From Astropecten irregularis (lineage: Eukaryota > Echinodermata > Asteroidea > Paxillosida > Astropectinidae): a stretch of 64,000 nt of DNA. Positions 41,701 through 64,000 of the stretch are shown piece after piece. The notes beneath the pieces are model-generated. The model did not search any database, was not told the DNA's origin, and saw only the letters and a program-made list of their open reading frames with translations. Numbering within the stretch: the stretch's first letter is position 1; each line of letters opens with the position of its first letter. Location: the NCBI GenBank assembly GCA_963971285.1, contig OZ020261.1, positions 4,715,983 to 4,779,982 of the forward strand. The letters run 5' to 3'. A program made the position numbers and the translations under genes.

Positions 41701-44700
41701 GCCCCCCCCCCCCCCAAAAAAAAAAAAAGCAAGGTAAAAATATTGTTGTTTTGAAAATACTGCAATTGTTCAGTTATTAAGCGCAAATTACATAAAAAAC
41801 GCGTTGTGTGGGTTATATGTGCATGTTTTTCGACCCCTAATAAGACATAGCAGAAGCGCGTGTTAGAAGAACCAAAAATATGGGTCTTCTAGCCCCCCCG
41901 AAAGAAAATAATAATGGTTCTTCTAGCCCCCCCCCCCCCCCCAATATTGAACTGCGCCTTGTCAATCCATCTGTTACCTGTACTTAAATGTAGCGAGAGA
42001 CTTCTCCTACATAATTTTTGTTTTCACATTTTGGGTTTCACTTCCATTTGTTTCTGTTTTAGACCAGTTTTGTACTAACTAGTGACATTAGATTGACTAT
42101 TCGGTTTCGTTGCTGTGTTTGCCTCGTATTGTCGATGATCTTACATTACGGATATTAATTTATTCTGTAAACATTATAACCTACATGCAGGTGTAAAGGT
42201 AATCTGGGAATTCTCCTTCTTGTGAGCAGGTTCCTCCGTTCTTACAGTAGGATTCGAGACACCCTGAGGTTTGACCTGGAAGTGAAAATGAACAGGGGCA
42301 AGAAATATTGAATCAAATTTTGATGAACCATATTTCTCATGCTCTGTAAATGTGCGCCCTGTGGATACCTTCAACAGGGACACACAATTACAAATTATGT
42401 TTGAAATGTTTAAAATACATGACAATATAATGCATTCTTAAAATAATAACGTCATTTATTTTCCCTTAAACAAAATGTATGAATTACTGGCAAACATATA
42501 CATATAGCCACTGGAATGAATATTCTAGGACTCTTACTTTCCGAGTTATGTAGATTTATATCAGAATTGGCGGCCATTTTTCAAAATGGCCGCCAAGGCC
42601 ACCACAGGCCAATTCAGAAATGGCACTATATCTAAAATTGCATGTATTGGTATCAAATACATGTGTGCCAAGTTTCATGCTTTTACCAGTTGTTGACACT
42701 TGGTTGTTTGAAATGTTTAAAATACATGACAATATAATGCATTCTTAAAATAATAACGTCATTTATTTTCCCTTAAACAAAATGTATGAATTACTGGCAA
42801 ACATATACATATAGCCACTGGAATGAAGATTCTAGGACTCTTACTTTCTGAGTTATGTAGATTGATATCAGAATTGGCGGCCATTTTTCAAAATGGCCGC
42901 CAAGGCCACCACAGGCCAATTCAGAATTGGCACTTTATCTAAAATTGCATGTATTGGTATCAAATACATGTGTGCCAAGTTTCATGCTTTTACCACAAAG
43001 TGCACGATTTTCCCCCTAATCCGCTGGACTATTAGCATTTTTAACAGCTCTTTCGTAATATTAGAGGTATGAATGCACAATCGCATTTGAAAATGTAGAC
43101 TTTGGATTTTCTAGGGAAAAAATCAATTCATAATTGTATTCCTATCTGATCATCAAATAACCACAAGGGGAAGTGACTGAAATTAAAGTCATTGAAAAGT
43201 GGACAAAGAAAAATTTACTGAAGCGGGATTCAAACCGGCGACCTCCTGAATACCATACAGGCGCTCTACCAACTGAGCTATCCAGCCCCACCTTGGTGGT
43301 GTCCCATATAGTCAATTATTTATATTCGTTTGGCAGTCAGAAGCCATGAAACCACGCACACAGCGCTATATCCCAGGGATCATTTAACCGATACACGCAG
43401 CAATGGTGTAACCTGAGAACGGTACATGGGGATCACTCAAGGAGGATACGGCTTTTTAAAATGCCGTATCCTATTTGGGACGCCACAACGTAGGGTTTGA
43501 CGGCTCAGTTCGTAGAGCGCCTGTACGGTATTCAGGAGGTCGCCGGTTCGAATTCCGCTCCAGTCAATTTTACTTTATCCACTTTTTAATGTATTTCTAT
43601 CTATTAAAACATGTTTACATTACACTGTAATAAATGAAACGTACTTGCAACCACTGTACTCGCAGTATCAAACATGGAACCATTCAACGGTCCATTGCTG
43701 TTCGTCATGGTTTCGACTTGAATCACGTCTAGTACATCATTTAAGCCGACGTCATCGTTTGCAGGGTACATTATCTGGGTGTTCAAGATCAAACTGCCAC
43801 TTCGGACCGATATGAGTACCACTTCCACCACAGTAACTGTCCTACCATTGCCCCTCAGAGCAGCCAGAGTCTATACGAATATGAACGTGTATACTTAGTC
43901 ACATTAACACAGCACATTTACAAATGCTATTATGCGATTTCATAATGCCGTAGCACTTCCCATTAATCAAACATAGGGAATAAATACGAGTTTATGACCT
44001 GACAAGCTAAACATAATATTCTAAACAAGAATAGACAAGGGATCTTACCCATGTTCTGACATTAGTGGCAAGCTGTATGAACTCAGGGGAGGCCTTGTTG
44101 TTATAAGCCGAAGTAAATACAACGCCCACTATTCGTAAATACATGGTGAACAGTAGAAGTCCTGTGTGTGAGTCATACGGGATAAAGAGGTTAAGGTAGG
44201 TAGATTAGGAATATAACCAGCTAAAGAGAAAGTTCACACACCATTATGGCATTCTTTAATTCAAAGTTTCGATTTTTGATGGAGATATCTTTTTGATACA
44301 GATATCATAACCAATTTTGCAAATAAAAGTCGGAATATTTATAAAGTCGGAATATTTCATATAACGAACATTTTACCATTTGAGGAGGCAGTTGATGGGG
44401 TGGAAAATGTTGACGCCGAATCAGTAGTTGATTCTCGGTTGGAAGTTGAAGCTTGGAGAGTAAATGCTTCACGGTCAGTTGTTGACGCCTGACCAGTAGT
44501 TGATCTTAAATTGATCGATGCTGGGTCAGAGGTTGATGTCTTGTCAGTTGTCGATACTCGGTCAGTAGTTGATAGTTGACTTGTTGTTGGTTCTGGGTCA
44601 TTGGTGGTTTCTTGGTCAGTTATTGTTTGCAAGTCGGTCGCTGATTCTAGGTCTAATTCTGGTGTTGAGTCAGTGGCTGATGAATGGTCGGTTATTGACA

Positions 44701-47700
44701 CTATGTAAGTAGTTGATATTGGATTTGTTGTTGATATTGGGTCAGTAGTTGATTCTTGGTAAGTTGTTTCTGAGTCGGTGTTTGTTTCTATATCAGTTAT
44801 CGATCCCGAGTCAGTGGTTGATGAATGGTCGGTTGTTGACAATGGATCAGTCGTTGATATTTGATTGGTTGGGGATACCGAGTCAGTAGTTGATAATTGA
44901 TTGGTTGTTGATACCGAGTCAGTGGTGGTTACTTGTTCAGTTGTTGTTCCTGGTTCAATTGTTGATTCTAGGTCAGTTAACGATGCTGAGTTAGTGGGCA
45001 ACGTCTGATCAGTTGTTGACACTAGGTCTGTGGTGAAAACTTGGTCATCAGTTGTTGTTTCTGAGTCAGTAGTTGATTCTAGGTCAGTTATCGAAGCTGA
45101 ATCAGTGGTTGGTTTCTGCTCAGTTGTTGAGACTGGGTCAGTAGTTGATACCCGATTGATTGCTGATGCTGAGGAAGTGGTGGAAAATGTATCAGTTGTT
45201 GACGCGTGGTCGGTAGTTGATACTTGATTTGCGTTTACTTGCAAAAATGTCGTTTCTGGTTCACTTGTTGATTCTAGGTAAGCAGTTGATATTTTATTTG
45301 TTGCTGATACAGGGTCAGTGGTGGATACTTGCTCAGATGTCTCTGAGCCAGTCGTTGTATCTGTATCAGTTGTCGATGCTGAGTCTGTGATTGATGTCTG
45401 ATCAGTTGTGGATACTTGGTCAGTAGTTGATATTTGATTTGTTGCTGATACAGGGTTAGTGGTGGATACTTGCTCCGATGTTTCTGAGCCAGTCGTTGTT
45501 TCTGTATCAGTTGTCGATGCTGAGTCTGTGATTGATGTCTGATCAGGTGTAGATACTTGGTCAGCAGTTGATATTTGATTTGTTGCTGATACAGGGTTAG
45601 TGGTGGATACTTTCTCCGATGTTTCTGAGCCAGTCGTTGTTTCTGTATCAGTTGTCGATGCTGAATCAGTGGTTGATGTCAGATCAGTTGTTGGCACTTG
45701 GTCAGCAGTTGATATTTGATTTGTTGCTGATACAGGGTTAGTGGTGGATACTTGCTCAGATGTTTCTGAGCCAGTCGTTGTTTCTGTATCAGTTGTCGAT
45801 GCTGAATCTGTGGTTGATGTCAGATCAGTTGTTGGCACTTGGTCAGCAGTTGATATTTGATTTGTTGCTGATACAGGGTTAGTGGTGGATACTTGCTCAG
45901 ATGTTTCTGAGCCAGTCGTTGTTTCTGTATCAGTTGTGGATGCTGAGTCTGTGGTTGATGTCTGATCAATTGTGAATACTTGGTCAGCAGTTGATATTTG
46001 ATTTGTTGCTGATACAGGGTTGGTGGTGGATACTTGCTCAGATGTTTCTGAGCCAGTCGTTGTTTCTGTATCAGTTGTCGATGCTGAATCTGTGGTTGAT
46101 GTCTGATCAGTTGTTGACACTTGGTCAGCAGTTGATATTTGATTTGTTGCTGATACAGGGTTAGTGGTGGATACTTGCTCAGATGTTTCTGAGCCATTGG
46201 TTGTTTCTGTATCAGTTGTGGATGCTGAGTCTGTGGTTGATGTCTGATCAATTGTGAATACTTGGTCAGCAGTTGATATTTGATTTGTTGCTGATACAGA
46301 GTTGGTGGTGGATACTTGCTCAGATGTTTCTGAGCCATTGGTTGTTTCTGTATCAGTTGTCGATACTGAGTCTGTGGTTGATGTCTGATCAATTGTGAAC
46401 ACTTGGTCAGCAGTTGATATTTGATTTGATGCTGATACAGGGCTGGTGGTGGATACTTGCTCAGATGTTTCTGAGCCATTGGTTGTTTCTGTAACAGTTG
46501 TCGATGCTGAATCTGTGGTTGATGTCTGATCAGTTGTTGACACTTGGTCAGCAGTTGATATTTGATTTGTTGCTGATACAGGGTTAGTGGTGGATACTTG
46601 CTCAGATGTTTCTGAGCCATTGGTTGTTTCTGTATCAGTTGTCGATGCTGAGGCTAAGGTTGATGTCTGATCAGTTATTGACACTTGGTCAGCAGTTGAT
46701 ATTTGATTTGTTGCTGATACAGAATTAGTGGTGGATACTTGCTCAGATGTTTCTGAGCCATTGGTTGTTTCTGTATCAGTTGTGGATGCTGAGTCTGTGG
46801 TTGATGTCTGATCAGTTGTTGACACTTGGTCAGCGGTTGATATTTGATTTGTTGCTGATACAGGGTTAGTGGTGGATACTTGCTCATATGTTTCTGTATC
46901 AGTTGTGGATGCTGAGTCTGTGGTTGATGTCCAATCAGTTGATGACACTTGGTCAGTAGTTGATATTTGAATCATTGTTGAAGCTTGGTCAGTAGTTGCT
47001 TTCCGATCGGTAGTTGATGTTGGGTTAGTAGATGATATTTGATTTGTTGTAGCTACTGGGTCAGTGGTGGGTACTTGCAAAGTTGTTGTTTCTGGTTCAC
47101 TTGTTGATTCTATGTCAGAAGTTAGTATTTGATTTGTTGTTGATGCAGGGTTAGTGGTGGATAGTTGCTCAGTTGTTTCTGAGCCAGTAGTTGTTTCTGT
47201 TTCAGTGTCAATTGTCGATGCTGAATCTGTGGTTGATGTCTGATCAGTTGTTGACACTTGGTCAGCAGTTGATATTTGATTTGTTGCTGATACAGGGTTA
47301 GTGGTGGATACTTGCTCAGATGTTTCTGAGCCATTGGTTGTTTCTGTAACAGTTGTCGATGCTGAATCTGTGGTTGATGTCTGATCAGTTGTTGACACTT
47401 GGTCAGCAGTTGATATTTGATTTGTTGCTGATACAGGGTTAGTGGTGGATACTTGCTCAGATGTTTCTGAGCCATTGGTTGTTTCTGTATCAGTTGTCGA
47501 TGCTGAGGCTAAGGTTGATGTCTGATCAATTGTGAATACTTGGTCAGCAGTTGATATTTGATTTGTTGCTGATACAGGGTTGGTGGTGTATACTTGCTCA
47601 GAAAATGTTTCTGAGCCAGTCGGTGTTTCTGTATCAGGTGTTGATGCTGAGTCTGTGGTTGAAGTCTGATCAGTTGTTGACACTTGGTCAGCAGTTGATA

Positions 47701-50700
47701 TTTGATTTGTTGCTGATACAGAATTAGTGGTGGATACTTGCTCAGATGTTTCTGAGCCATTGGTTGTTTCTGTATCAGTTGTGGATGCTGAGTCTGTGGT
47801 TGATGTCTGATCAGTTGTTGACACTTGGTCAGCGGTTGATATTTGATTTGTTGCTGATACAGGGTTAGTGGTGGATACTTGCTCATATGTTTCTGTATCA
47901 GTTGTGGATGCTGAGTCTGTGGTTGATGTCCAATCAGTTGATGACACTTGGTCAGTAGTTGATATTTGAATCATTGTTGAAGCTTGGTCAGTAGTTGCTT
48001 TCCGATCGGTAGTTGATGTTGGGTTAGTAGATGATATTTGATTTGTTGTAGCTACTGTGTCAGTGGTGGGTACTTGCAAAGTTGTTGTTTCTGGTTCACG
48101 TGTTGATTCTATGTCAGAAGTTAGTATTTGATTTGTTGTTGATGCAGGGTTAGTGGTGGATAGTTGCTCAGTTGTTTCTGAGCCAGTAGTTGTTTCTGTA
48201 TCAGCGTCAATTGTCGATGCTGAATCTGTGGTTGATGTCTGATCAGTTGTTGACACTCGGTTATCAGTTGATGCTTGATTGACCGTTGATACTGAGTCAG
48301 TGGTTGGTGTCTGATCAGTTGTTGACTGGAGGTCAGTAGTTGACCTTTTATTTGTTGTTGACACTGGGTCAGTGGTGGTTACTCGGTATGCCGCTGTCTC
48401 TGAGCCAGTTGTTGTTTCTGTATCAGTTGTCGATGCTGAGTCTGTGGTTGATGTCTGATCAGTTGTTGACACTGGTTCAGTAGTTGATATTTGATTCATT
48501 GTTGAAGCTTGGTCGTTGGTAGTTACTTGGTCAGCTGTTGTTTCTAAGTCAGTGGTTGACGCTTCGTCAGTTGTCGATACTCGATTTGTAGTTAATGATG
48601 GGTAAGTAGTTGGGAGTTGATCGGTGGTAGTTACTTGGCCTGTGGTGGACAATTGCACAGTGGTTGTTTCTGAGTTAGTGGTTGATGTCTGGTCTGTCGT
48701 TGACGCTTGGTCGGTTGTTGATACCCAATTAGTAGTTGATAATGGGTAAGTAGTTGAGAGTTGATTGGTAGTGGATACTTGATCAGTGGTGGACACTTGG
48801 ACAGTGGTTATTTCTGAGTTAGTGGTTGATGTCTGGTCAGTCGTTGACACTTTGTCAGTTGTCGACGCTTGGTCAGTGGTGGAAACTTGGACAGTGGTTG
48901 TTTCGGTTACTGGGAGAAAATAAAGAACACAAATGTTAATCAATCAACGTTAGTCATACATTGAATAATTGAATCGCCCTAATATTGATTGACCCGAAAT
49001 AGCGAGTTTTCATATATTCAAACATAGGCCTCTACACTATTAATAACCAACTGTGGATTCTGAATTCAACTTAAGATTCAATTCATCATGTTTGAAAGTC
49101 GTCATCGCGCCCAATAGAAAAACGAAGATGCCCAGTTTCTGGAGCCATATTGCCAACTGTTCCTGGGGACATCTTTCGTTGTACATCGATCTTAAGGGTC
49201 GCTGACCTACGAGGTTTCGGAAACGAAACCCATACAAATAGTGATGATATTTGTACATAAAGAAGTCCTTGGTATATAATATAAATGACTACACGTTGAA
49301 TGAGATAACACGTACCTGGACATGGCTCATTCGTTATAGAAAACTCATCTATGTCCATGCCCACAGAATCTTGACTTTCACCTCTAGTGGCTTCAACGGC
49401 CACATAAAATGGTGAGGATTGATGGGTTTGGACAGCAGCTGATATCCATGGATTCATTCTGGTTGGTTCACCAATCCGTTCAAAAACTGGGTCCTTGTTT
49501 GTGAGATCGGTGCCATCTGCCACTGAGAAGATGTAAACTCTGAGAGAACCTGCAAAGATTGCAATGTATCAGCATCAATGTAACGATATGACGAAAACAA
49601 AAGACAAGGTAAATATACCATGTTCAGCTGATGTTACCAGGGACGTAGATCAAGCGGGAGATGGGGGCGTACACCCCCGGGTTTTCATTGTTGATATAAA
49701 ATGTATATGTATCTATGTATTTGTGCACAAACGTATATGGAAGTACGACCCAGCTGCAGGATCATACCCCCTAGGTCTAAGGACGTGTCTACGCAACTGG
49801 GGTTTGACATCAACTTTGAGAGGCTGAACTTAATAAAAGTTTCGAAAAATGTGATTTGAACCCACGTATTCTTTGGGTAAAGAAAGTCAAACTCAAAGTC
49901 AACAAACAGTCAAACTCCACAAATTCTACCCGATTTACTTGAAGTTTTTCAAGGCATAGTACAAATTGTGTATATTACACTGTCAACGTATCTTTAGGCT
50001 AATGTTTTCCAGTTGTATAGTACCTAGGTTTATAGATGGTAAAATGCGTAAACAGCCTGTATGTAGCTAGTCAAATATTAGTTACCTAATGTGCCCCTTT
50101 GCATGTTGTACTCGAAATTGAAACACCAAGCAGATTCTTGCATATCAGTCACTTTAACCACTGGGCTCAGCATAACCGCTGTATCACCCGGGAATCGGCT
50201 CCTGGAACGGCAATGCAAATGTCCCCGCTCTGTAGGAGGAATGAGAAATGAAATAAAAGCACGGGTAATATTACTGGAAACGTCACATCACACTACCACG
50301 CAGCTGAAGATCAATGACGCTATACCTTATTCTGCTTTACATTGGCGCAATATGGCGCCCTCTGTCGCGTCAAAGTACTAACATAAAAACAAAAAAGAGA
50401 AGCCAGTGATGCCCGCCAATAGTATTAATTAGGAACATATGGACTTCTGTTTGTCTTCAACAGACTCTTTGCAGTGGTGTGCTTGCCTCCGCTCTGCTAA
50501 TTTGTCCTAGGTTCGATCCTCGGATTTAGACTTCTTCGAGAAGTCAATTAAGGGTTGCTTCATGAAAACTGGTATCGAGTTGGTTGAAGGAACATTTACA
50601 TACTGGTAGTGTTTTTTCTCAGGCAAAAAAGAACATACATATAATCGGCTGACACACAAATAATTTAAAAGGAATTAGGCAGATAAGGGTCTAAACTGCC

Positions 50701-53700
50701 TATTTCTAGTAGTTCTCAAAACAATGAGAGACTTTGTGAAGATTTTCTATGTAAAGTCAATTTACAGGTACTTCTGGTGAACATTTAGCCCAGCCAAACA
50801 TCGCCCTTGCTACTCACAAATTATATTAGTGTATTGATTGTTTTTTATGCATCGCGAAATAATTACAGTGAGTGTTGTCGAAGTTGACTGACCGATCCGA
50901 CGGCACGATAAACCACCCGCCATTACTGCGGTGTCCTCCGCCTTTTTGTGTGGCAAGAAAAGAATTAACGTTCCGCCGCACTCTATACTACAGGGGGTAT
51001 GTCTCCCGACTAGGGGACGTACGCCATGCAGTATAGTGTGCGATGGAGCGTAAATGTTGTTGTTGGTACACAATCAAAAACGGGGACACCGCACTTATGG
51101 CGGATGGTATATCGTGCCGTCGGATCGGTCTACATGACATACCGCCTTCCTGTCTCAATATCCAATTCCACACGTCAGGCAGTGACTGTGTCCAGCCGCA
51201 GTACGAACGTTCAAAGCTGCAGTCAAAGTTCAGGTCTTGTTCTGAAAAATTGATAATAAAGATAATAATGATATATTAATGAACGATAATTACAAGTCAA
51301 GCACAACTCTTATATCGCGCAATGCATCTGACATGCCATCAAAAGGAGCGTATCATACCACGTCCGCATAAATCTCTGTCATAAGATTGCTGGATGTCGA
51401 TCACATGCCACAACATTATTCGTTCTATTCAACGGGTACCGATGAATAGTACTGATCGAGACGCGTCAGGCCCTCCCAACTCCAAGCGTTTTGATATAAA
51501 TGTCAATTAACATATACATTGATCTGACACGTACCTGGGCATAGCTCATTCTTTATAGAAACGAGATCTATGGCAATGTCGCCCTCACTGCCATCATCAC
51601 CTCTAGTGGCTTCAATGGCCACATAAAATGGTGACCATCGATGGGTTTGGACAGCAGCTGGTAGCCATATGTATGCACTACTTTGTTCACCAATTCGCTG
51701 GAAAACTGGTTCTTTGTTTTTGAATTTAGTGTCATCTGTCACTGAGAATATGTAAATTTTGAGAGAACCTGCAGGGAGATAGAAGTATGTATATAACATC
51801 AATGTAATGATAATACTTATGACGAATCAAAATCAAACGTAAACCTGGTGCAGAAGTAGTTTAGCTTGAAAGGTTATGAGTCGAACAAACGTTATCCTTT
51901 TTGTTCAGAACTCACCTGATTCTGTTTTATACCTGTGTTTGCAAATTCTCACATGTAGCCTTGATATCTTAATCTTACTGCAAGAGTTTGCCTTTGGCAT
52001 GCAATATTTGTCTTAGCCATGATAATTACAGGGCGAGTCAAAAAGAACTTGACCGGGATTGGTGATGTTTTTCAACAGAAACAAATGACACTCACAATTT
52101 CAGTAAAGCATATTACTTAACAAGCACTCTCTTTGGCTTATTACAAAAATAAAAGGAAGAAAAATGAAACAAACTGATTAAGAGGAGTTTAAAAAAGTCT
52201 AGTTTAATATTAAAAGGTACTCATTTTGCAAGCTGTCCATGGAATACTTGACTGAATCTGATCATCTGAAAGTGTACTTAAGGGTAATTCTTGCTATGTA
52301 AGATACGTATACGTACTTTATTTGTTTTGTGGAGCATTCAATGGACAGCTTTAAAAAAAAATTACCTTCAATGATATAGACATAAGTACTTTTTGGAATT
52401 TTTTTTATTGTATTTATTTATTTCTACCCTGGGATTACCTCTCAGTGAAACAATGAGAATGAATCCATTTTTTCAATTCGTTTGACTATTGAGAGAATGC
52501 TTCTTAGATATGTTTAACTGAACTTTTGAGTGTTATTCTTTACATTTTAAAAACATCAACAATCCTAATCATGTTCTTGTTGAGTCACCCAGTATTTGTA
52601 CATGGTACAACAACGAGCAAACAACACGAATCCCGCTATACTATGGAAAACACTGCGAAAACAAACGGTACGTATTCTAAGCAGACTTCATACGCTTACC
52701 AATATGGGTTCCAAACATGTTGTAATAGAAATTGAAACACCAAGCAGTGTCTTGTTGATCGGTAGTATTGACCACTGGACTCTGAAGAATCGCTTTATCA
52801 CCAGGTGAACGGAACGTGGCTTCAAGGTAGAGGAAACCGTCCTCTGTACAGTAAAAAAGAATCATGGAAAATAAGACCGGGTAGCATCAAAGGAAACGTA
52901 ACACGACGACGTTGCTGGGAATCAATGACGACAATTTTACCTTGCAGTAGTGCGCCCTCTGTTGCATTGCAGTGGGCCGAGTAACAACAATGTCATGTGC
53001 CAAAATCTCGGGCTGCGGCTACAAATTCCTTATAATTCATTGGGAGACGTTTGAGCTGCGTCTTGATAGCGCACGCGCACAACAACGTGCGCATGCTCAC
53101 AATAATATTGGGCGCGCACGCTCAGAGTTAACGGAAAGAGACTTCAGTCTGCTGCTCAAAAGGTCTCATATTAAAAAAATCATTCTTATATATATTTCTT
53201 TTTTTTTCGGGGGGGAGATCGAATTATGCTTATTAGGCTTGCACTTCACCGACATATTTCAGCACTGCATAAAGGAATCTCAGTCTCAGGTCAGATTCGA
53301 ACCTACGACCTCCTGTTTACTAGTGCAGATGCAACATACACTAGACCACAGGCTAGCTGGGTTGTGTTAAAGGGCGTGTACAACGCTGTTAAAGGTGACA
53401 GGATAGCTCTCACACTTTGTCTAATCCAGCACGTATATGAAATAATAAATCTGTGTTAATTTGAGCTCAATCGGAGATCTGTTTCGGTTTGTTACCAATG
53501 TTGTAAATGCCATTTATGACAAGGAGTTTAAATCTAAAGCATGTGTTAATCAAACGGAAAGCCTAAGCAAACACGTGACAATATGAAATAGCTTTAAGTG
53601 CGCACAATGCTTTAACTAAAGACTGAGACTTGAAAACAAGTTTATATGAATATAAATTGAATATGCTGTGGTCCAGTAAGGTAGCAAGAACTAAACGTGA

Positions 53701-56700
53701 TGTAAGTGTACATTGATTAGTTAAATAAGTATAGTACCTTTGTTTGGGTCCTGATTTGGCCCGGTTTCGAAGGTCTTGGTTGTACCCTGGGCAGATTGCC
53801 AGTTTATCAGGTCATGAGGCAAACCAATCTGAGTCCAGCCACATAGATCGACGTCATTTATAAAATTGCAATAAAATCCTAAGATGGAGTCAGCAGTTGA
53901 TATCTGATTCGTTGTTGATGCTTGGTAGTTGGTAGTTACTTGGTCAGCTGTTGTTTCTAAGTCAGTGGTTGATGTTTGGTCAGTCGTTGACGCTTGGTCA
54001 GTTGTTGATACCCGATTTGCAGTTGATGGTGGGTAAGTAGTGGAGAGTTGACTGGTGGTAGATACTTCGTCAGTGGGGGACACTTGGAAAGTGGTTGTTT
54101 CTGAGTCGGCTACTAGGAGAAAAAAAAGTTTAATCAATCAACGTGAGTCATAAATTGAAGAATTTAATCGCCCTAAAATTGATTGACCCGAAATATATTC
54201 AAAGATATAACCAACTGTGGATTTTGAATTCAACTAAAGATTCAAATTCATCATGTTTGAAAGTCGTCATCGTGCCCAATAGAAAAACGAAGATGCCCAG
54301 TTTCTGGAGACATGTTGCCAACTATTCCTGGGGATATCTTTCGTTGTACATCGATCTTAAGGGTCGCTGACCTACGAGGTTTCGGAAACGAAACCCATAC
54401 AAATAGTGATGATATTTGTACATAAAGAAGTCCTTGGTATATAATATAAATGACCACACGTTGAATGAGATAACACGTACCTGGACATGGCTCATTCGTT
54501 ATAGAAAACTCATCTATGTCCATGCCCACAGAATCTTGACTTTCACCTCTAGTGGCCTCAACGGCCACATAAAATGGTGATGATTGATGGGTTTGGACAG
54601 CAGCTGATATCCATGGATTCATTCTGGTTGGTTCACCAATTCGTTCAAAAACTGGTTCTTTGTTTGTGAGATCGGTGCCATCTGTCACTGAGAAGATGTA
54701 AACTCTGAGAGAACCTGCAAAGATTGCAATGTGTCAGCATCAATGTAACGATATGACGAAAACAAAAGACAAGGTAAATGTTAACCATGTTCAGCTGATG
54801 TTACCAGGGACGTAGATCAAGGGGGAGATGGGGGCGTACAACCCCAGGTTTTCATTGTTGATATAAAATGTATATGTTTCTATGTATTTGTGCACAAACG
54901 TATATGGAAGTACGACCCAGCTGCAGGATAATACCCCCTAGCTCTGAGGACGTGTCTACGCAACTGGGGTATGACATCAACTTTGAGAGGCTGAACTAAA
55001 TACAAGTTCCGAAAATGTGATTTGAACCCACGTATTCTTTGGGTAAAGAAAGTCAAACTCAAAGTCAACAAACAGTCAAACTCCACAAATTCTACCCGAT
55101 TTACGTGAAGTTTTTCAAGGAATAGTACAAATTGTGTATATTACACTGTCAACGTATCTTTAGGCTAATGTTTTCCAGTTGTATAGTACCTAGGTTTATA
55201 GATGGTAAAATGCAGATGGTAAACAGCCTGTATGTAGCTAGTCAAATAATATTTACCTAATGTGCCCCTTTGCATGTTGTACTCAAAATTGAAACACCAA
55301 GAAGATTCTTGCATATCAGTCACTTTAACCACTGGGCTCAGCAAAACCGCTGTATCACCCGGGAATCGGCTCCTGGAACGGCAATGCAAATGTCCCCGCT
55401 CTGTAGGAGGAATGAGAACTGAAATAAAAGCACGGGTAATATAAGTGGAAACGTCACATCACACTACGACGTGTCGCGACGCAGCTGGAGATCAATTACG
55501 CTATACTTTGTTCTGCTTTACATTGGCGCAGTATGGCGCCCTCTGTCGCGTCAAAAGTACTAACATAAAAACAAAAAAGAGAAGCCAGTGACGCCCACCT
55601 ATAGAATAAATTAGGAACATTATGAAATTCTGTTTGTCTTCAACAGACTCTGTGCCGTGCTGTGCTTGCCTCCGCTCTACTAATTTGTCCTAGGTTCGGT
55701 CCTCGGATTTAGACTTCTTCGAAAAGTCAAGGGCTGCTTCATGAAAACTGGTATCGAGTTGGTTGAAGGAACATTTACATACTGGTAGTGTTTGTTCTCA
55801 GGCCAAAAAGAACATACATATAATGGGCTGACACACCGATAATTTAAAAGGAATTAGGCTGATAAGGGTTTAAACTGCCTATTTGTAGTAGTTCACAAAA
55901 CAATGAGAGACTTTGTGAAGATTTTCTATGTAAAGTCAATTTACAGGTACTTCTGGTGAACATTTAGCCCAGCCAAACATCGCCCTTGCTACTCACAAAT
56001 TATATTAGTGTATTGATTGTTTTTTATGCATCGCGAAATAATTACAGTGAGTGTTGTCGAAGTTGATTGACCGATCCGACGGCACGATAAACCACCCGCC
56101 ATTACTGCGGTGTCCTCTGCTTTTTTTGTGTTGCAAAAAAAAAAAAAACTACTTTCCGCCGCACTCTATACTGCAGGGGGTATGTCTCCTGATTAGGGGA
56201 CGTACACCATGCAGTATAGTGTGCGATGGAGCGTAAATTTTTTTGTTGGTACACAATCAAAAACGGGGACACCGCACTAATGGCGGATGGTATATCGTGC
56301 CGTCGGATCGGTCTACATGACATACCGCCTTCCTGTCTCAATATCCAATTCCACACGTCAGGCAGTGACTGTGTCCAGCCGCAGTACGAACGTTCAAAGC
56401 TGCAGTCAAAGTTCAGGTCTTGTTCTGAAAAATTGATAATAAAGATAATAATGATATATTAATGAACGATAATTACAAGTCAAGCACAACTCTTATATCG
56501 CGCAATGCATCTGACATGCCATCAAAAGGAGCGTATCATACCACGTCCGCATAAATCTCTGTCATAAGATTGCTGGATGTCGATCACATGCCAAAAAATT
56601 ATTCGTTCTATTCAACGGGTACCGATGAATAGTACTGATCGAGACGCGTCAGGCCCTCCCAACTCCAAGCATTTTGATATAAATGTCAATTAACTTGTAC

Positions 56701-59700
56701 ATTGATCTGACACGTACCTGGGCATAGCTCATTCTTTATAGAAACGAGATCTATTGCAATGTCGCCCTCACTGCCATCGTCACCTCTAGTGGCTTCAATG
56801 GCCACATAAAATGGTGACCATCGATGGGTTTGGACAGCAGCTGGTAGCCATATGTATGCACTGCTTTGTTCACCAATTCGCTGGAAAACTGGTTCTTTGT
56901 TTTTGAATTTAGTGTCATCTGTCACTGAGAATATGTAAATTTTGAGAGAACCTGCAGGGAGATAGAAGTATGTATATAACATCAATGTAATGATAATACT
57001 TATGACGAATCAAAATCAAACGTAAACCTGGTGCAGAAGTAGTTTAGCTTGAAAGGTTATGAGTCGAACAAACGTTATCCTTTTTGTTCAGAACTCACCT
57101 GATTCTGTTTTATACCTGTGTTTGCAAATTCTCACATGTAGCCTTGATATCTTAATCTTACTGAAAGAGTTTGCCTTTCGCATGCAATATTTGTCTTAGC
57201 CATGATAATAACAGGGCGAGTCAAAAAGAACTTGACCGGGATTAGTTATGTTTTTCAACAGAAACAAATGACACTCACAATTTCAGTAAAGCATATTACT
57301 TAACAAGCACTCTCTCCGGCTTATTACAAAAAAAAGGAAGCAAAATGAAACAAACTGATTAAGAGGAGTTTAAAAAAGTCTAGTTTACTATTAAAAGGTA
57401 CTCATTTTGCAAGCTGTCCATGGAATACTTGACTGAATCTGATCATCTGAAAGTGTACTAAGGGGCCGTCCATAAAGTACGTACGCACGAAATGCCGACT
57501 TTTTTGACCCCGCCTCCCCCTCTGTACGCAAGGCGTACGCAGTGGTCCCAACCCCCCCTCCCCCCCTGTACGCATACGCATTCCACATTAGGTTTTTCAC
57601 TTCTCGTGGTCCCTTGCTTTAGCATCATTAGAATGTCACCGTAATCCGGGCCGGTACCGTTATTGGGACGTCACTTTCAAATTCTGAAATGAAAGACTAA
57701 AGTTTAACAGGTTTTTATACATTTACAGATGGATTTTACTATTTTTTATCATGTTGAATAAGAAAAAAAGGAAAAAACAAAACAACCCCGGTGCTTTTTT
57801 CACATTTTTTACCTCTCTTTTCGCGCGATAATGCTATGCAAAATTTTCGTTTGCGTACGGTACGCATTGGCCTTAACCCCCCCTCCCCCCTGTACGCATG
57901 CCGTACGCATCGGTAACAACCCCCCCTCCCCCCCTTCGTGCGTACGTACTTTATGGACGGCCCCTTAAAGGGTAATCCTTGCTATGTAAGATACGTATAC
58001 GTACTTTATTTGTTTCGTGGAGCATTCAATGGACAGCTTTAAAAAAAAATTACCTTCAATGATATAGACATTAGTCCTTTTTGGATTTTTTTTTATTGTA
58101 TTTATTTATTTTTACCCTGGGATTACCTCTCAGTGAAACAATGAGAATGAATCCATTTTTTCAATTCGTTTGACTATTGAGAGAATGCTTCTTAGATATG
58201 TTTAACTGAACTTTTGAGTGTTATTCTTTACATTTTAAAAACATCAACAATCCTAATCATGTTCTTGTTGAGTCACCCAGTATTTGTACATGGTACAACA
58301 ACGAGCAAACAACACGAATCCCGCTATACTATGGAAAACACTGCGAAAACAAACGGTACTTATTCTAAGCAGACTTCATACGCTTACCAATATGGGTTCC
58401 AAACATGTTGTAATAGAAATTGAAACACCAAGCAGTGTCTTGTTGATCGGTAGTATTGACCACTGGACTCTGAAGAATCGCTTTATCACCAGGTGAACGG
58501 AACGTGGCTTCAAGGTAGAGGAAACCGTCCTCTGTACAGTAAAAAAGAATCATGGAAAATAAGACCGGGTAGCATCAAAGAAAAAGGAACACGACGACGT
58601 TGCTGGGAATCAATGGCGACAATTTTACCTTGCAGTAGTGCGCCCTCTGTTGCATTGCAGTGGGCCGAGTAACAACAATGTCATGTGCCAAAATCTCGGG
58701 CTGCGGCTACAAATTCCTTATAATTCATTGGGAGACGTTTGAGCTGCGTCTTGATAGCTCACGCGCACAACAACGTGCGCATGTTCACAATAATATTGGG
58801 CGCGCACGCTCAGAGTTAACGGAAAGAGACTTCAGTCTGCTGCTCAAAAGGTCTCATATTAACAAATCATTCTTATATATATTTTTTTTTCGGGGGGGAG
58901 ATCGAATTATGCTTATTTTGCTTGCACTTCACCGACATATTTCAGCACTGCATAAAGGAATCTCAGTCTCAGGTCAGATTCGAACCTACGACCTCCTGCT
59001 CACTAGTGCAGATGCAACATACACTAGACCACAAGCTAGCTGGGTTGTGTTCAAGGGCGTGTAAAACGCTGTTAAAGGTGACAGGATAGCTCTCACACTT
59101 TGTCTAATCCAGCACGTATATGAAATAATAAATCTGTGTAAATTTGAGCTCAATCGGAGATCTGTTTCGGTTTGTAACCAATGTTGTAAATGCCATTTAA
59201 GACAAGGAGGTTAAATCTAAAGCATGTTTTACTCCAACGCAAAGCGTAAGCAAACTCGTGACAATATGAAACAGCTTTAAGTGCGCACAATGCTTTAACT
59301 AAAGACTGAGACTTGAAAACGAGTTTATATGAATATAAATAGAATGTGCTGTGGTAAGGTAGAAAGAACTAAACGTGATGTAAGTGTACATTGATTAGTT
59401 AAATAAGTATAGTACCTTTGTTTGGGTCCTGATTTGGCCCGGTTTCGAAGGTCTTGGTTGTACTCTGGGCAGATTGCCAGTTTATCAGGTCATGGGGCAA
59501 ACCAATCTGAGTCCAGCCACATAGATCGACGTCATTTATAAAATTACAATAAAATCCTAAGATTGAGTCAGCAGTTGATATCTGATTCGTTGTTGATGCT
59601 TGGTAGTTGGTAGTTACTTGGTCAGCTGTTGTTTCTAAGTCAGTGGTTGATGTTTGGTCAGTCGTTGACGCTTGGTCAGTTGTTGATACCCGAATGGCAG

Positions 59701-62700
59701 TTGATGGTAGGTTAGTAGTGGAGAGTTGACTGGTGGTAGATACTTCGTCAGTGGGGGACACTTGGACAGTGGTTGTTTCTGAGTCGGCTACTAGGAGAAA
59801 AAAACAACATAAAGTTGAATCAATCAACGTTAGTCATAAATCAAAGAATTCAATCGCCCTAATATTGATTGACCCGAAATAGCGAGTTTTCATATATTCA
59901 AACATATAACCAACTGTGGATTTTGAATTCAACTAAAGATTCAATTCATCATGTTTGAAAGTCGTCATCGTGCCCAATAGAAAAACGAAGATGCCCAGTT
60001 TCTGGAGCCATATTGTCAGCTATTCCTGGGGACATCTTTCGTTGTACATCGATTTTAAGGGTCGCTGACCTACGAGGTTTCAGAAAGGAACCCATACAAA
60101 TAGTGATGATATTTGTACATCAAGAAGTCCTTGGTATATAATATAAATGACCACACGTTGAATGAGAGAACACGTACCTGGACATGGCTCATTCTTTATA
60201 GAAAACTCATCTATGTCCATGCCAACAGAATCTTGACTTTCACCTCTAGTGGCTTCAACGGCCACATAAAATGGTGACGATTGTTGGGTTTGGACAGCGG
60301 CTGATATCCATGGATTCATTCTGGTTGGTTTACCAATTCGTTCAAAAACTGGTTCTTTGTTTGTAAGATCGGTGCCATCTGTCACTGAGAAGATGTAAAC
60401 TCTGAGAGAACCTGCAAAGATTGCAATGTATCAGCATCAATGTAACGATATGACGAAAACAAAAGACAAGGTAAATGTAAACCATGTTCAGCTGATGTTA
60501 CCAGGGACGTTACGGCCCTAATTTGGTAAAATGATGTAAGTCGATTTTTAGGCGAATTTGAGTTAGAGCCATATCCCACTAAAGTGACGGCGCTTTTTTC
60601 GATTCTGAGAATATTAAACCTGTGAAGTAAAGCGTTTAAGAGATAGAATAATGTATCTTTGCGTGAAAAGATATCCAGAGCGACTTTTTCTCAGTGAAAT
60701 GATGTATGTCGGACATACGTGTACATCCCTTGCCAAATCTGGCAAATTAATACGGTAAAATTATGTATCTCGTACTTACATCATTTTACCATATTAATGC
60801 GTATAAAGTGATTAAGTACACACATACATCAGTTCTCCATAATACAGTTTTGTTCAGCGGACTATTTTTAATTTGAAATGATGTATCTTCACAAAAATGT
60901 CAATATTTTCACAAATATCCAAACGATATGAACAGTTTCAAAACAAAACAAAATTATGGTTGGCAGAACATTAAAAGATTACAGTTCTGTAGTCTTGGCA
61001 ACTGTAACAATGAAAAGGCAAAGGCTCAATCTTTACGTTAATTTTCCTCAAAATGACCCTAAACGGAAATACATCATTTCACCAAATTAGGGCCGCGTAG
61101 ATCAAGGGGGAGGTGGGGGCGTACACCCCCAGGTTTTCATTGTTGATATAAAATGTATATGTGTCTATGTATTTGTGCACAAACGTATATGGAAGTACGA
61201 CCCAGCTGCAGGATCATACCCCCTAGGTCTAAGGACGTGTCTACGCAACTAGGGTATGACATCAACTTTGAGAGGCTGAACTTAATAAAAGTTCCGAAAA
61301 TGTGATTTGAACCCACGTATTCTTTGGGTAAAGAAAGTCAAACTCAAAGTCAACAAACAGTCAAACTCCACAAATTCTACCCGATTTACTTGAAGTTTTT
61401 CAAGGCATAGTACAAATTGTGTATATTACACTGTCAACGTATCTTTAGGCTAATGTTTTCCAGTTGTATAGTACCTAGGTTTATAGATGGTAAAATGCGT
61501 AAACAGCCTGTATGTAGCTAGTCAAATATTAGTTACCTAATGTACCCCTTTGCATGTTGTACTCGAAATTGCAACACCAAGAAGATTCTTTCATATCAGT
61601 CACTTTAACCACTGGGCTCAGCAAAACCGCTGTATCACCCGGGAATCGGCTCCTGGAACGGCAATGCAAATGTCCCCGCTCTGTAGGAGGAATGAGAAAT
61701 GAAATAAAAGCACGGGTAATATTACTGGAAACGTCACATCACACTACCACGCAGCTAGAGATCAATGACGCAATACCTTATTCTGCTTTACATTGGCGCA
61801 ATATGGCGCCCTCTGTCGCGTCAAAGTACTAACATAAAAACAAAAAAGAGAAGCCAGTGATGCCCGCCAATAGTATTAATTAGGAACATATGGACTTCTG
61901 TTTGTCTTCAACAGACTCTGTGCCGTGCTGTGCTTGCCTCCGCTCTGCTAATTTGTCCTAGGTTCGGTCCTCGGATTTAGACTTCTTCGAAAAGTCAAGG
62001 GTTGCTTCATGAAAACTGGTATCGAGTTGGTTGAAGGAACATTTACATACTGGTAGTGTTTTTTCTCAGGCAAAAAAGAACATACATATAATCGGCTGAC
62101 ACACCAATAATTTAAAAGGAATTAGGCAGATAAGGGTCTAAACTGCCTATTTCTAGTAGTTCTCAAAACAATGAGAGACTTTGTGAAGATTTTCTATGTA
62201 AAGTCAATTTACAGGTACTTCTGGTGAACATTTAGCCCAGCCAAACATCGCCCTTGCTACTCACAAATTATATTAGTGTATGGATTGTTTTTTATGCATC
62301 GCGAAATAATTACAGTGAGTGTTGTCGAAGTTGACTGACCGATCCGACGGCACGATAAACCACCCGCCATTACTGCGGTGTCCTCCGCCTTTTTGTGTGG
62401 CAAGAAAAGAATTAACGTTCCGCCGCACTCTATACTACAGGGGGTATGTCTCCCGACTAGGGGACGTACACCATGCAGTATAGTGTGCGATGGAGCGTAA
62501 TTTTTTTTGTTGGTACACAATCAAAAACGGGGACACCGCACTAATGGCGGATGGTATATCGTGCCGTAGGATCGGTCTACATGACATACCGCCTTCCTGT
62601 CTCAATATCCAATTCCACACGTCAGGCAGTGACTGTGTCCAGCCGCAGTATGAACGTTCAAAGCTGCAGTCAAAGTTCAAGTCTTGTTCTGAAAAATTGA

Positions 62701-63215
62701 TAATAAAGATAATTATGATATATTAATGAACGATAATTACAAGTCAAGCACAACTCTTATATCGCGCAATGCATCTGACATGCCATCAAAAGGAGCGTAT
62801 CATACCACGTCCGCATAAATCTCTGTCATAAGATTGCTGGATGTCGATCACATGCCACAAAATTATTCGTTCTATTCAACGGGTACCGATGAATAGTACT
62901 GATCGAGACGCGTCAGGCCCTCCCAACTCCAAGCATTTTGATATAAATGTCAATTAACTTGTACATTGATCTGACACGTACCTGGGCATAGCTCATTCTT
63001 TATAGAAACGAGATCTATTGCAATGTCGCCCTCACTGCCATCGTCACCTGTAGTGGCTTCAATGGCCACATAAAATGGTGACCATCGATAGGTTTGGACA
63101 GCAGCTGCTAGCCATATGTATGCACTGCTTTGTTCACCAATTCGCTGGAAAACTGGTTCTTTGTTTTTGAATTTAGTATCATCTGTCACTGAGAATATGT
63201 AAATTTTTAGAGAAC
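38682..63215 (-). CDS. Transmembrane mucin with tandem MAM domains, SEA, EGF and TM; 5' end outside window
   Basis: Read from right to left, the exons encode: the end of a MAM domain (62982-63215); five complete MAM domains (spans 60178-62688, 56718-59790, 54481-56424, 51535-54112, 49316-51241); a 4.5-kb Ser/Thr repeat exon (44377-48909); a SEA domain (44049-44161, 43645-43870); an EGF domain (42185-42275, 41300-41340); a TM exon (40192-40367); and a probable tail (39857-39897, then perhaps 38682-38716). All internal exons up to the SEA are symmetric phase 1-1, so cassettes can duplicate without frameshift. Visible coding length is about 2,800 residues. Mucin-SEA-EGF-TM is the architecture of membrane mucins; MAM repeats at the outer end suggest adhesion or oligomerisation. 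It is presumably an epithelial or egg/sperm surface glycoprotein (inference). I know of no named orthologue. Confidence 0.85.
38817..38960 (+). mobile_element. tRNA-like SINE, third family
   Basis: GGGAGTCAGGTTGGCGTAGC, then CGGACCGGGTTCAAGTCC and TATGTGGGTTTTACCCAGAA. Better preserved than the copy at 14,510. Confidence 0.6.
39482..39812. mobile_element. TTAA-flanked MITE copy in mucin tail region
   Basis: Ends TTAAAGGTAATATTAAACTT and CAAAGTATGATACTACCTTT plus AA. It lies just left of the probable tail micro-exon at 39,857. Confidence 0.8.
39857..39897 (-). CDS. Probable cytoplasmic-tail micro-exon
   Basis: After a CCTGTAG acceptor the frame reads DMDFRYKDDNFKI plus two bases, then a GTATGT donor. 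The phase fits the TM exon (phase 0 in, 2 out) and the charged composition suits a tail. It is short, so confidence is moderate. Confidence 0.5.
40192..40367 (-). CDS. Transmembrane exon of the mucin
   Basis: It reads DENGNGGIIAVAVTSVVVVI, then LVMFILAVLCAF, a helix of about 26 residues, followed by RIAQKQRMINQQEEWHMTSL and SGRRYLE. The basic residues after the helix place the C terminus in the cytoplasm. Phase 1 in, 0 out. Confidence 0.9.
40927..41077. mobile_element. GC-rich foldback element, copy 3
   Basis: AACCGGTCTTCAAGTCAACA and its exact reverse complement flank GCGCACGCGCACGCACAAC and ACAACGCGCGCATGCTCAC. Outer GGGCCGTGTCCC-like words (CCGTGTCCCTGTTC at about 40,810 and GGGACACGGCCC at 41,071) suggest a host element around it. 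Confidence 0.75.
41300..42275 (-). CDS. EGF-like domain (exons 42185-42275, 41300-41340)
   Basis: Joined in phase 2, the two exons read GCLESYCKNGGTCSQEGEFP, then DYLYTCMCTDHFSGIYCE. The six cysteines and the GG-T-C and F-S-G-x-Y-C motifs define an EGF domain. It lies between SEA and membrane, as in membrane mucins. The 41-nt second exon is a micro-exon. Confidence 0.88.
41640..41945. repeat. Poly-G and poly-C tracts in inverted arrangement
   Basis: GGTTCTTCTGGGGGGC and later TGGTTCTTCTAGCCCCCC occur with long G13, C13-17 and A13 runs between. Likely a degraded element with homopolymer slippage; length is uncertain in any assembly. Confidence 0.6.
42401..42998 (+). repeat. 307-bp direct tandem duplication
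   Basis: TTGAAATGTTTAAAATACAT begins at 42,401 and 42,708, and the copies differ by a few bases. Each holds the palindrome GGCGGCCATTTTTCAAAATG followed by GCCGCC. Confidence 0.85.
43145..43385 (-). mobile_element. tRNA-headed SINE, minus orientation
   Basis: TACCAACTGAGCTATCCAGC is box A reversed, and GATTCAAACCGGCGACCTCC box B reversed. Its tail CACTTCCCCTTGTGGTTAT is intact. Confidence 0.8.
43480..43590 (+). mobile_element. tRNA-headed SINE, plus orientation
   Basis: GGTTTGACGGCTCAGTTCGT and GTCGCCGGTTCGAATTCCGC. With the minus copy 100 bp away it forms a head-to-head pair in a mucin intron. Confidence 0.7.
43645..44161 (-). CDS. SEA domain (exons 44049-44161, 43645-43870)
   Basis: The first exon reads NKASPEFIQLATNVRTW and the second VVEVVLISVRSGSLILNTQI, then MYPANDDVGLNDVLDVIQ. 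NKxSPEFxxLAxxV at the start and a hydrophobic strand with G-S followed by three aliphatics are SEA features. GSLIL (about 43784-43798) stands at the place of the GSVVV autoproteolysis site, so the precursor probably self-cleaves between G and S, leaving a non-covalent mucin heterodimer (family knowledge). Confidence 0.85.
44377..48909 (-). CDS. Mucin Ser/Thr tandem-repeat exon, 4,533 nt
   Basis: A single open exon of 1,510 codons, with acceptor TCTCCCAG and donor GTAAAA, phase 1-1. Thr, Ser, Asp, Gln and Asn dominate, with almost no aromatic and no Cys residues, as in mucin PTS regions that carry dense O-glycans. The core is about 16 copies of a 47-residue (141-nt) unit such as EQVSTTNPVSATNQISTADQ followed by STTDQTSTTDSASTTDTET. 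A variant segment with TTNQILTSDIEST occurs twice about 1 kb apart, so a larger block was also duplicated. The flanks are older, degenerate STTDQ repeats. Copy number is probably polymorphic. Confidence 0.93.
49316..51241 (-). CDS. MAM domain type 1, cassette A (exons 51143-51241, 50086-50229, 49316-49549)
   Basis: This is the last MAM domain before the mucin exon. It has the same exon sizes and DSVGMDIDEFSITNEPCPG at its end. It splices in phase 1 to the mucin exon at 48909 instead of to a 375-nt linker exon as in cassettes B and C. Confidence 0.9.
49633..49805 (+). repeat. TATATGGAAGTACGACCC repeat, cassette A
   Basis: Present at the same place in all cassettes, so it was there before the cassette duplicated. 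Confidence 0.65.
50475..50545 (+). mobile_element. tRNA-like SINE head in cassette A (also 55,650 and 61,925)
   Basis: GTGCTTGCCTCCGCTCTGCT and CCTAGGTTCGATCCTCGG. Same position in each cassette. Confidence 0.5.
50890..51130. mobile_element. Foldback element next to the 5' splice site, cassette A
   Basis: GACCGATCCGACGGCACGAT on the left and its reverse complement on the right enclose CACCCGCCATTACTGCGGTG and its mirror. The right end is about 10 bp from the donor of exon 51,143-51,241. Confidence 0.8.
51535..54112 (-). CDS. Mucin linker plus MAM domain type 2, cassette B (exons 53738-54112, 52700-52843, 51535-51768)
   Basis: Same 375/144/234-nt layout as cassette C. The linker differs by a few substitutions (TTFQVSPTDEVS). 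The 144-nt exon is identical in residues to that of cassette C. Confidence 0.9.
53035..53365. mobile_element. Worn GC-rich foldback plus reversed SINE, cassette B (also 58,725-59,055)
   Basis: GCGCACGCGCACAACAACGT and ATTGGGCGCGCACGCTCAG resemble the GC-rich foldback family; downstream AGATTCGAACCTACGACCTC is a reversed tRNA-like box B. Confidence 0.55.
54481..56424 (-). CDS. MAM domain type 1, cassette B (exons 56326-56424, 55257-55400, 54481-54714)
   Basis: Same exon lengths (99, 144, 234) and near-identical residues to cassettes C and A, with WCFNFEYNMQRGTLG. Introns are also nearly identical to those in A and C, showing recent duplication or gene conversion. Confidence 0.9.
56073..56313. 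mobile_element. Foldback element, cassette B
   Basis: Same element as at 50,890, with an A-run of about 12 in the centre and small changes. Confidence 0.75.
56718..59790 (-). CDS. Mucin linker plus MAM domain type 2, cassette C (exons 59416-59790, 58388-58531, 56718-56951)
   Basis: The first exon (375 nt) carries about 73 residues of Ser/Thr linker (STTDQASTTDQTSTTDLETT) and then the start of MAM: GFYCNFINDVDLCGWTQIGL. The second (144 nt) reads EDGFLYLEATFRSPGDKAIL and WCFNFYYNMFGTHIG. The third (234 nt) ends KNELCPG. All phase 1-1. The second intron contains the 0.5-kb insertion at 57464-57965. Confidence 0.9.
57464..57965. mobile_element. 0.5-kb inverted-repeat transposon inserted only in this cassette
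   Basis: Ends AGGGGCCGTCCATAAAGTAC and GTACTTTATGGACGGCCCCT are perfect inverted repeats extended by GTACGCACGAA. The matching site is empty at about 52,288 and 63,722 (GTGTACTTAAGGG / GTGTACTTTAGGG). Flanks suggest a 2-3 bp TWA-type target duplication. The interior has repeated CCCCCCTCCCCCC and TACGCATGCCGTACGCA words and no gene. Confidence 0.88.
60178..62688 (-). CDS. MAM domain type 1, cassette C (exons 62590-62688, 61537-61680, 60178-60411)
   Basis: Exons of 99, 144 and 234 nt, all phase 1-1, give a full MAM domain of about 159 residues. It starts NFDCSFERSYCGWTQ, continues through GDTAVLLSPVVKVTD and FEYNMQRGT, then SLRVYIFSVTDGTD, SPFYVAVEATRGESQ and NEPCPG. MAM domains are extracellular adhesion/oligomerisation modules. 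Odd point: this copy has SSWCCNFEYN where the other two have WCFNFEYN, so it carries an extra cysteine. The last intron holds a 0.58-kb insertion absent from the other cassettes. Confidence 0.9.
60507..61092. mobile_element. 0.58-kb inverted-repeat transposon inserted only in this cassette
   Basis: Ends CGGCCCTAATTTGGTAAAAT and ATTTCACCAAATTAGGGCCG are inverted repeats. The empty site GGGACGTAGATC is seen in cassettes A (about 49,640) and B (about 54,810). CGT flanks both sides, as a likely short target duplication. Confidence 0.85.
62337..62579. mobile_element. Foldback element, cassette C
   Basis: Third copy of the element at 50,890 and 56,073, in the same position next to the exon donor. 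Confidence 0.78.
62982..63215 (-). CDS. MAM domain type 2, last exon of a copy entering from the right
   Basis: This 234-nt phase 1-1 exon reads GSLKIYIFSVTDDTKFKNKE, then SPFYVAIEATTGDDGSEGDI and LVSIKNELCPG. It is the C-terminal half of a MAM domain. Its first two exons would lie just beyond the right edge. It differs slightly from 56718-56951 and 51535-51768. Confidence 0.9.
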
Positions 63216-64000
63216 CTGCAGAGAGATAGAAGTATGTTTATAACATCAATGTAATGATAATACTTATGACGAATCAAAATCAAACGTAAACCTGGTGCAG
63301 AAGTAGTTTAGCTTGAAAGGTTATGAGTCGAACAAACGTTATCCTTTTTGTTCAGAACTCACCTGATTCTGTTTTATACCTGTGTTTGCAAATTCTCACA
63401 TGTAGACTTGATATCTTAATGTTACTGAAAGTGTTTGCCTTTCGCATGCAATATTTGTTTTAGCCATGATAATTACAGGGCGAGTCAAAAAGAACTTGAC
63501 CGGGATTAGTTATGTTTTTCAACAGAAACAAATGACACTCACAATTTCAGTAAAGCATATTACTTAACAAGCACTCTCTCCGGCTTATTACAAAAAAAAT
63601 GAAGAAAAATGAAACAAACTGATTAAGAGGAGTTTAATAAAGTCTAGTTTACTATTAAAAGGTACTCATTTTGCAAGCTGTCCATTGAATACTTGACTGA
63701 ATCTGAACATCTGAAAGTGTACTTTAGGGTAATCCTTGCTATGTAAGATACGTATACGTACTTTATTTGTTTTGTGGAGCTTTCAATGGACAGCTTAAAA
63801 AAAAAATTACCTTCAATGATATAGACATTAGTCCTTTTTGGATTTTTTTTTATTGTATTTATTTATTTTTACCCTGGGATTACCTCTCAGTGAAACAATG
63901 AGAATGAATCCATTTTTTCAATTCGTTTGACTATTGAGAGAATGCTTCTTAGATATGTTTAACTGAACTTTTGAGTGTTATTCTTTACATTTTAAAAACA

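Follow-up and report, generated by a model that had tools for sequence, protein, structure and literature searches.

The tandem cassettes described here are best explained as belonging to one minus-strand membrane-mucin gene that grew from a one-cassette form by tandem duplication, with later exchange between the copies, a reading to which we assign a probability of about 0.8. The DNA analysed is a stretch of 64,000 nucleotides (C25:4715983-4779982, from an assembly of 475.7 Mb in 168 contigs), referred to below as the window. The predicted product, presumably translated from a single mRNA, would be a very large type I membrane protein with, in order, a signal peptide, seven cassettes of two MAM domains each (14 by alignment) with Ser/Thr spacers between cassettes, a mucin stalk of 1510 residues, an SEA-like domain, an EGF-like domain and a transmembrane segment. 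Its ancestor would be a gene of this layout with one cassette, which is proposed to be still present as the paralogue L038. Unequal crossing-over would then have given rise to two young groups, cassettes 1-3 and 5-7, flanking the older cassette 4, with exchange between copies. On the cell surface, such a protein may serve as an adhesive or recognition rod above the mucin stalk.

Nearly three tandem cassettes of ~5.2-5.8 kb each lie on the minus strand of the window. In the direction of transcription the exons of a cassette measure 375, 144, 234, 99, 144 and 234 nt, with AG/GT borders and phase 1-1. An earlier reading made from the sequence only had listed the sizes as 99, 144, 234, 375, 144 and 234 nt, which is the same set in cyclic order, and had proposed that the cassettes are neutral to the reading frame; the borders and phases agree with this for all MAM exons. 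The 234-nt exons that end MAM-A start at 49316, 54481, 60178 and 66800, corresponding to spacings of 5.2, 5.7 and 6.6 kb. The exons within the window are as follows.

49316..49549, minus strand: cassette 1, 234A exon (MAM-A end); exon-border search
50086..50229, minus strand: cassette 1, 144A exon; exon-border search
51143..51241, minus strand: cassette 1, 99 exon (MAM-A start); exon-border search
51535..51768, minus strand: cassette 1, 234B exon (MAM-B end); exon-border search
52700..52843, minus strand: cassette 1, 144B exon; exon-border search
53738..54112, minus strand: cassette 1, 375 exon, a Ser/Thr spacer (234 nt) fused to the MAM-B start (141 nt)
54481..54714, minus strand: cassette 2, 234A exon; exon-border search
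55257..55400, minus strand: cassette 2, 144A exon; exon-border search
56326..56424, minus strand: cassette 2, 99 exon; exon-border search
56718..56951, minus strand: cassette 2, 234B exon; exon-border search
58388..58531, minus strand: cassette 2, 144B exon; exon-border search
59416..59790, minus strand: cassette 2, 375 fusion exon; exon-border search
60178..60411, minus strand: cassette 3, 234A exon; exon-border search
61537..61680, minus strand: cassette 3, 144A exon; exon-border search
62590..62688, minus strand: cassette 3, 99 exon; exon-border search
62982..63215, minus strand: cassette 3, 234B exon, the remainder of cassette 3 lying past the window edge

The repetition itself, nearly threefold as had been claimed, was recovered by self-BLAST at 92.5-97.4% identity together with the exon borders. 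The matching pairs were 49043-52284 with 54207-57464 (96.0%), 49644-52555 with 61096-64000 (97.4%), 54811-57459 with 61096-63723 (96.2%), 52277-54813 with 57964-60510 (95.9%) and, as the shortest piece, 48903-49646 with 59784-60510 (92.5%). Taken exon by exon and intron by intron, identity among cassettes 1-3 was 88-100%, and their similarity is far beyond chance. The start given earlier for the array, 48943, did not hold: it is the end of a stop-to-stop frame, and the mucin exon starts at 48909. Elsewhere in the window, a five-base repeat of CCTGC occupies 9316-9806 (490 bp, 98 copies) with strong strand skew.

The array had been expected to continue to the right, and it does so in the 60 kb of sequence examined beyond that edge, which completes cassette 3 and adds four cassettes, for a total of seven, the array reaching 87,891 on the window scale. 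A genome-wide protein search with one 234-nt exon gave 22 matches, 14 of them in the array (seven A and seven B). All 42 MAM exons (7 x 6), 41 located automatically and the remaining one separately, have an open frame, AG/GT borders and phase 1. At the 5' end of the array the first MAM exon is 141 nt long (87751-87891, window scale) and lacks the mucin spacer; a signal-peptide exon at 89439-89502 stands directly before it. The first intron, between these two exons, holds a minisatellite with a unit of ~30 bp, judged by eye (88300-89350, window scale). At the other end, the last cassette is followed by these exons.

44377..48909, minus strand: mucin exon, 4533 nt, ~1510 codons, after the last cassette in place of a 375-nt exon
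44049..44161, minus strand: SEA-like exon 1; E 0.0075, 16.8 bits, under the Pfam cut-off of 26.4
43645..43870, minus strand: SEA-like exon 2; borders read from the sequence
42185..42275, minus strand: EGF-like exon 1; 20.4 bits, cut-off 21.5
41300..41340, minus strand: EGF-like exon 2
40192..40367, minus strand: transmembrane exon, a hydrophobic then a basic stretch; donor read by eye

The mucin exon encodes 32% Thr and 17% Ser and contains repeats of 18, 36 and 141 bp. The summed exon lengths, with the transmembrane exon counted as 176 nt, correspond to ~4,540 residues without the cytoplasmic end; neither cytoplasmic exons nor a 3' gene end was found.

Two MAM domains per cassette had been claimed. 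Pfam MAM (PF00629) was found above the cut-off in two stretches of each of the three cassettes scanned out of seven (cassette 1, E 7e-40; cassette 4, 2.4e-40; cassette 7, 1.8e-42), and the four cassettes outside the scan translate like the scanned ones. The top solved-structure match was MDGA1 (E 6.5e-17). The assignment to the membrane mucins was likewise borne out by the layout: the predicted gene has a long Ser/Thr-rich repeat (49% Ser+Thr across 1510 residues) and a predicted transmembrane segment whose hydropathy over 20 residues averages 3.18, the combination that marks a membrane mucin. The SEA and EGF matches next to the membrane are under the Pfam cut-offs, as is the SEA match in L038 (E 0.004, 17.7 bits). 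Sub-cut-off Pfam matches to Insulin_TMD, TMEM9, Cadherin_C_2, Conotoxin and hEGF were set aside as noise. Membership in the zonadhesins was rejected: the VWD scan, limited to cassette 1 and the SEA-EGF-TM part, found no VWD there, and the interval that separates the mucin exon from the first SEA-like exon, where the VWD of zonadhesin would sit, measures only 215 nt.

The ages of the cassettes were deduced from synonymous divergence in the MAM exons. Cassettes 1-3 differ mutually by a dS of 0.05-0.09 and cassettes 5-7 by 0.02-0.07; dS between these groups is 0.14-0.20, and that of cassette 4 against all others is 0.15-0.25. Judged by these values, there are two young groups of cassettes, 1-3 and 5-7, and an older cassette 4. 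The recent duplication proposed from the sequence finds support in the self-BLAST identities and in the low dS within groups. The accompanying statement that the introns are almost identical was correct within cassettes 1-3 and within cassettes 5-7 (85-98%) but not between the two groups, where intron identity falls to 57-78% and exon identity is 81-94%.

In 42 comparisons (21 cassette pairs, MAM-A and MAM-B), dN/dS of the MAM exons was 0.05-0.43 within groups and 0.45-0.86 between groups and never exceeded 1. Replacement changes were below the neutral expectation with p values of 0.003, 0.004 and 0.018, from three pairs that share ancestry and under the assumption that synonymous sites make up 22% of the total. 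In the Ser/Thr spacer, dN/dS was >1 in 3 of 15 pairs, resting on very few changes. A pseudogene was rejected, with 42 of 42 MAM exons open and dN/dS <1 in all 42 MAM comparisons.

The joint between cassettes proved to be legible. The 375-nt exon of cassettes 1-6 consists of 234 nt of Ser/Thr spacer, which aligns with the 5' part of the mucin exon, and 141 nt matching the opening MAM exon of cassette 7. The spacer of five of the six fusion exons ends in AG exactly at the 3' splice site used by cassette 7 and by the paralogue, reading TTAG/GA (the slash marking the joint) as against TCAG/GC or TCAG/GA in cassette 7 and the paralogue; in cassette 6 the AG is lost and the joint reads TTAA. The exon looks like a piece of mucin sequence joined to a former 3' splice site together with the opening MAM exon. 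The simplest and most likely origin would be a founding tandem duplication with one end in the mucin exon and the other just before the first MAM-B exon, which would have created the fusion exon in frame. Since phase 1 is common to the fusion junction and all other ends of MAM exons, the frame is kept with any number of cassettes.

Near the end of the spacer, a block of 70 nt is identical in all six fusion exons, synonymous sites included.

53887-53956 and 59565-59634: invariant 70-nt block, the two copies in the window; four more lie past its edge

None of the 22 codons in the block varies, whereas 25 of the 52 preceding codons and 20 of the 47 following ones do; no p-value is attached to this difference because the block was noticed in the data before it was measured. 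A recent conversion and an element for splicing or recombination are both possible. The odds stand about even that the block reflects recent gene conversion only, with no function of its own. This is favoured by the confinement of invariance to the block, by the introns adjoining the 375-nt exon, which are 75-86% identical between groups, and by the closest copy of the block in the mucin exon, which is 92.5% identical over 67 nt. A tract of ~70 nt shared by six cassettes of unlike age would, however, presumably require several such events.

Exchange between the cassettes, also suggested in the sequence-only reading, was examined in a three-way alignment of cassettes 1-3. The alignment, which has large gaps, contains 239 sites at which two cassettes are alike against the third: 91 for cassettes 1 and 3, 79 for 1 and 2, and 69 for 2 and 3. 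Neighbouring informative sites were of the same class 119 times, compared with 79.5 +/- 7.2 after shuffling, and none of 5000 shuffles reached the observed value. The longest run of one class was 17 sites (1 and 3), and the longest run of 1 and 2 (six sites) was not unusual. By this pattern cassettes 1-3 are mosaic, as gene conversion or unequal crossing-over would make them, and a fault of alignment or assembly could add to the effect. Two insertions resembling elements with terminal inverted repeats (TIR) are each private to one cassette in the comparison, which covered cassettes 1-3.

57465..57971, no strand assigned: 507-bp TIR-like insertion, cassette 2 only among cassettes 1-3; edges approximate
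60510..61096, no strand assigned: 588-bp TIR-like insertion, cassette 3 only among cassettes 1-3; edges approximate

The two elements differ from each other, and these private insertions mark cassettes 2 and 3 as separate copies or alleles.

Genes of this tandem kind are prone to mis-annotation and mis-assembly, and part of the array, namely some of cassettes 1-3, could be an assembly artefact in which haplotypes were placed end to end or the copies miscounted. For most of their extent cassettes 1-3 diverge by no more than 3-4%, a difference attainable between marine invertebrate haplotypes, and each private insertion sits in one cassette as the insertion of an allele would. A whole-genome protein search found no near-identical second 234B exon outside the array in the assembly, which also fits an artefact. 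Against it, haplotypes yield at most two copies and the young cassettes number three, further copies are present among cassettes 4-7 at a dS of 0.14-0.25 from cassettes 1-3, and the unit ends are not scattered but keep register with the gene. An artefact of this partial kind is considered unlikely; haplotype duplication was rejected as a full account of the array, given seven copies of several ages.

Since no second near-identical 234B exon was found, the assembly speaks neither for nor against an allelic difference in length. That the array is a hypervariable coding VNTR, with a cassette number differing between individuals and a 70-nt block selected for splicing or recombination, is a reading we hold to be improbable. 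If it were true, the MAM rod on the cell surface would differ between individuals in both length and sequence mosaic, and the locus would serve recognition or act as a barrier, with diversity at the scales of both the cassette and the mucin repeat.

The cassettes might also form a choice array, in which splicing takes some of them, or skips the spacer by way of the AG within the fusion exon, to give many isoforms. Every MAM exon is in phase 1-1 and could be skipped in frame, the AG at the old acceptor is retained in all fusion exons but one, and the invariant block lies just before it. On the other hand, the pyrimidine tract preceding this AG is weak by eye, cassette 6 no longer has it, and repeats of whole cassettes are unlike the mutually exclusive exon arrays familiar from cases such as Dscam. 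Little probability is given to such a choice, and a single transcript containing all cassettes remains the preferred interpretation.

The one-cassette form from which the gene is proposed to have grown was sought among the eight matches of the 234-nt exon outside the array, five of which were examined (L037, L038, L039, L043 and L044); L039 has two such exons and L037 one. One of the five, L038 (C25:12058000-12066000), lies on the same contig at 7.3 Mb from the array and has one cassette within 8 kb. Its parts follow the layout of the window gene (signal peptide, MAM-B, MAM-A, mucin, SEA-like, EGF-like and transmembrane); the signal-peptide exons of the two genes are 71% identical, and the mucin exon of L038 is short (~0.7 kb). 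L043 (C18) and L044 (C25) were covered over 7.5 and 8 kb, and each has one MAM-B and the start of a MAM-A. Neither tandem copies nor mucin were seen in these stretches, and no 234A exon was found in L043. A single cassette might in principle have come about by reduction and not be ancestral, but the stretches of L043 and L044 covered also show no tandem copies.

The MAM-A of the cassettes appears to be a hybrid when its exons are compared with those of L038, with one sequence representing each group. The 99-nt exon is 66% identical to the A exon of L038 and 44% to the B exon, whereas the 144A exon is closer to B (52%, against 35% for A), as is the 234A exon (61%, against 29%). MAM-A exons 2 and 3 of L038 are of another type than those of the window gene. 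This other 144A type is common to two paralogues on different contigs, L038 and L043, whose 144A exons are 72% identical. The first exon of cassette MAM-B is 47% identical to L038 B (score 84) and 52% to L038 A (score 21, over fewer residues), and identity alone therefore does not separate the types at the first exon. The first-exon tree supports the A grouping at 96/98, with the warning that long branches meet; the tree of 234-nt exons gives 85/85 but contains just one A-type paralogue sequence, which sits on a long branch, and that of the 144-nt exons with the paralogues is weak (56/78). From these comparisons, exons 2 and 3 of MAM-A probably came from MAM-B before the cassettes multiplied.

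MAM matches across the genome number at least 154, with 150 of 346 candidates scored, and dense clusters of them span ~120 and 94 kb at C30:475446-597098 and C30:10676459-10770254. Stretches of cox1 were also noted in the assembly. Translated with code table 9, the mitochondrial code of echinoderms and flatworms (AAA=Asn, ATA=Ile), the start of cox1 in the mitochondrial contig C168 reads FSTNHKDIGTLY, which we take to be the conserved cox1 start; with code tables 5 and 13 it reads FSTKHKDMGTLY. On the strength of this code the source animal is probably an echinoderm, a flatworm being less likely. At C131:32162-33484 a cox1 reads through without stops in the standard code, and the contig is probably bacterial; a second stretch, at C25:9951047-9952018 on a nuclear contig, has 7 TGA codons and is probably a nuclear copy of mitochondrial DNA.

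No publication on the window gene appeared among the matches listed from the open-licence literature. The passages available on MAM proteins in the sea star skeleton (PMC5460417) and on zonadhesin (PMC9275260) are silent on it.

The gene is of a known kind because human LPA, the SmPoMuc mucins, zonadhesin and the shuffling of frame-neutral modules, the last described in passages of PMC6335736 as a standard theme in animal genes, all precede it. As excerpted from PMC11462820, kringle IV type 2 of LPA consists of 5.6-kb units, 1 to ~40 per allele. Like the window gene, with its seven tandem units of whole frame-neutral exons in register, it is an intragenic array of highly homologous exon-intron units that each add an extracellular domain, but the domain is a kringle and not MAM, and each unit has two exons (~160 and 182 bp). 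The SmPoMuc mucins of Schistosoma mansoni are described in the passages available from PMC2576457 as a multigene family with ~1-kb units of one exon each, up to 20 repeats, and a repeat number that differs between individuals. They share with the window gene a mucin gene with tandem exon-plus-intron repeats (>93% identity in SmPoMuc) and recombination; the term "MAM domain" is absent from PMC2576457, and the likeness drawn here is one of layout. Zonadhesin and the zonadhesin-like genes, in the passages of PMC1325057, have MAM beside mucin and a domain number altered by tandem duplication, as in the window gene, but they have a VWD, which was absent from the parts of the window gene scanned. 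The paralogue L038 differs in having one cassette, a short mucin exon and the other type of MAM-A exons 2 and 3. With LPA and SmPoMuc as close precedents, the kind of array is already known, and what is unusual is how readable its history is: a one-cassette gene, a legible joint and copies of several ages together make it a clear case of the modular growth of a surface protein. The array also lends itself readily to asking whether LPA-type coding arrays vary within wild invertebrate populations.
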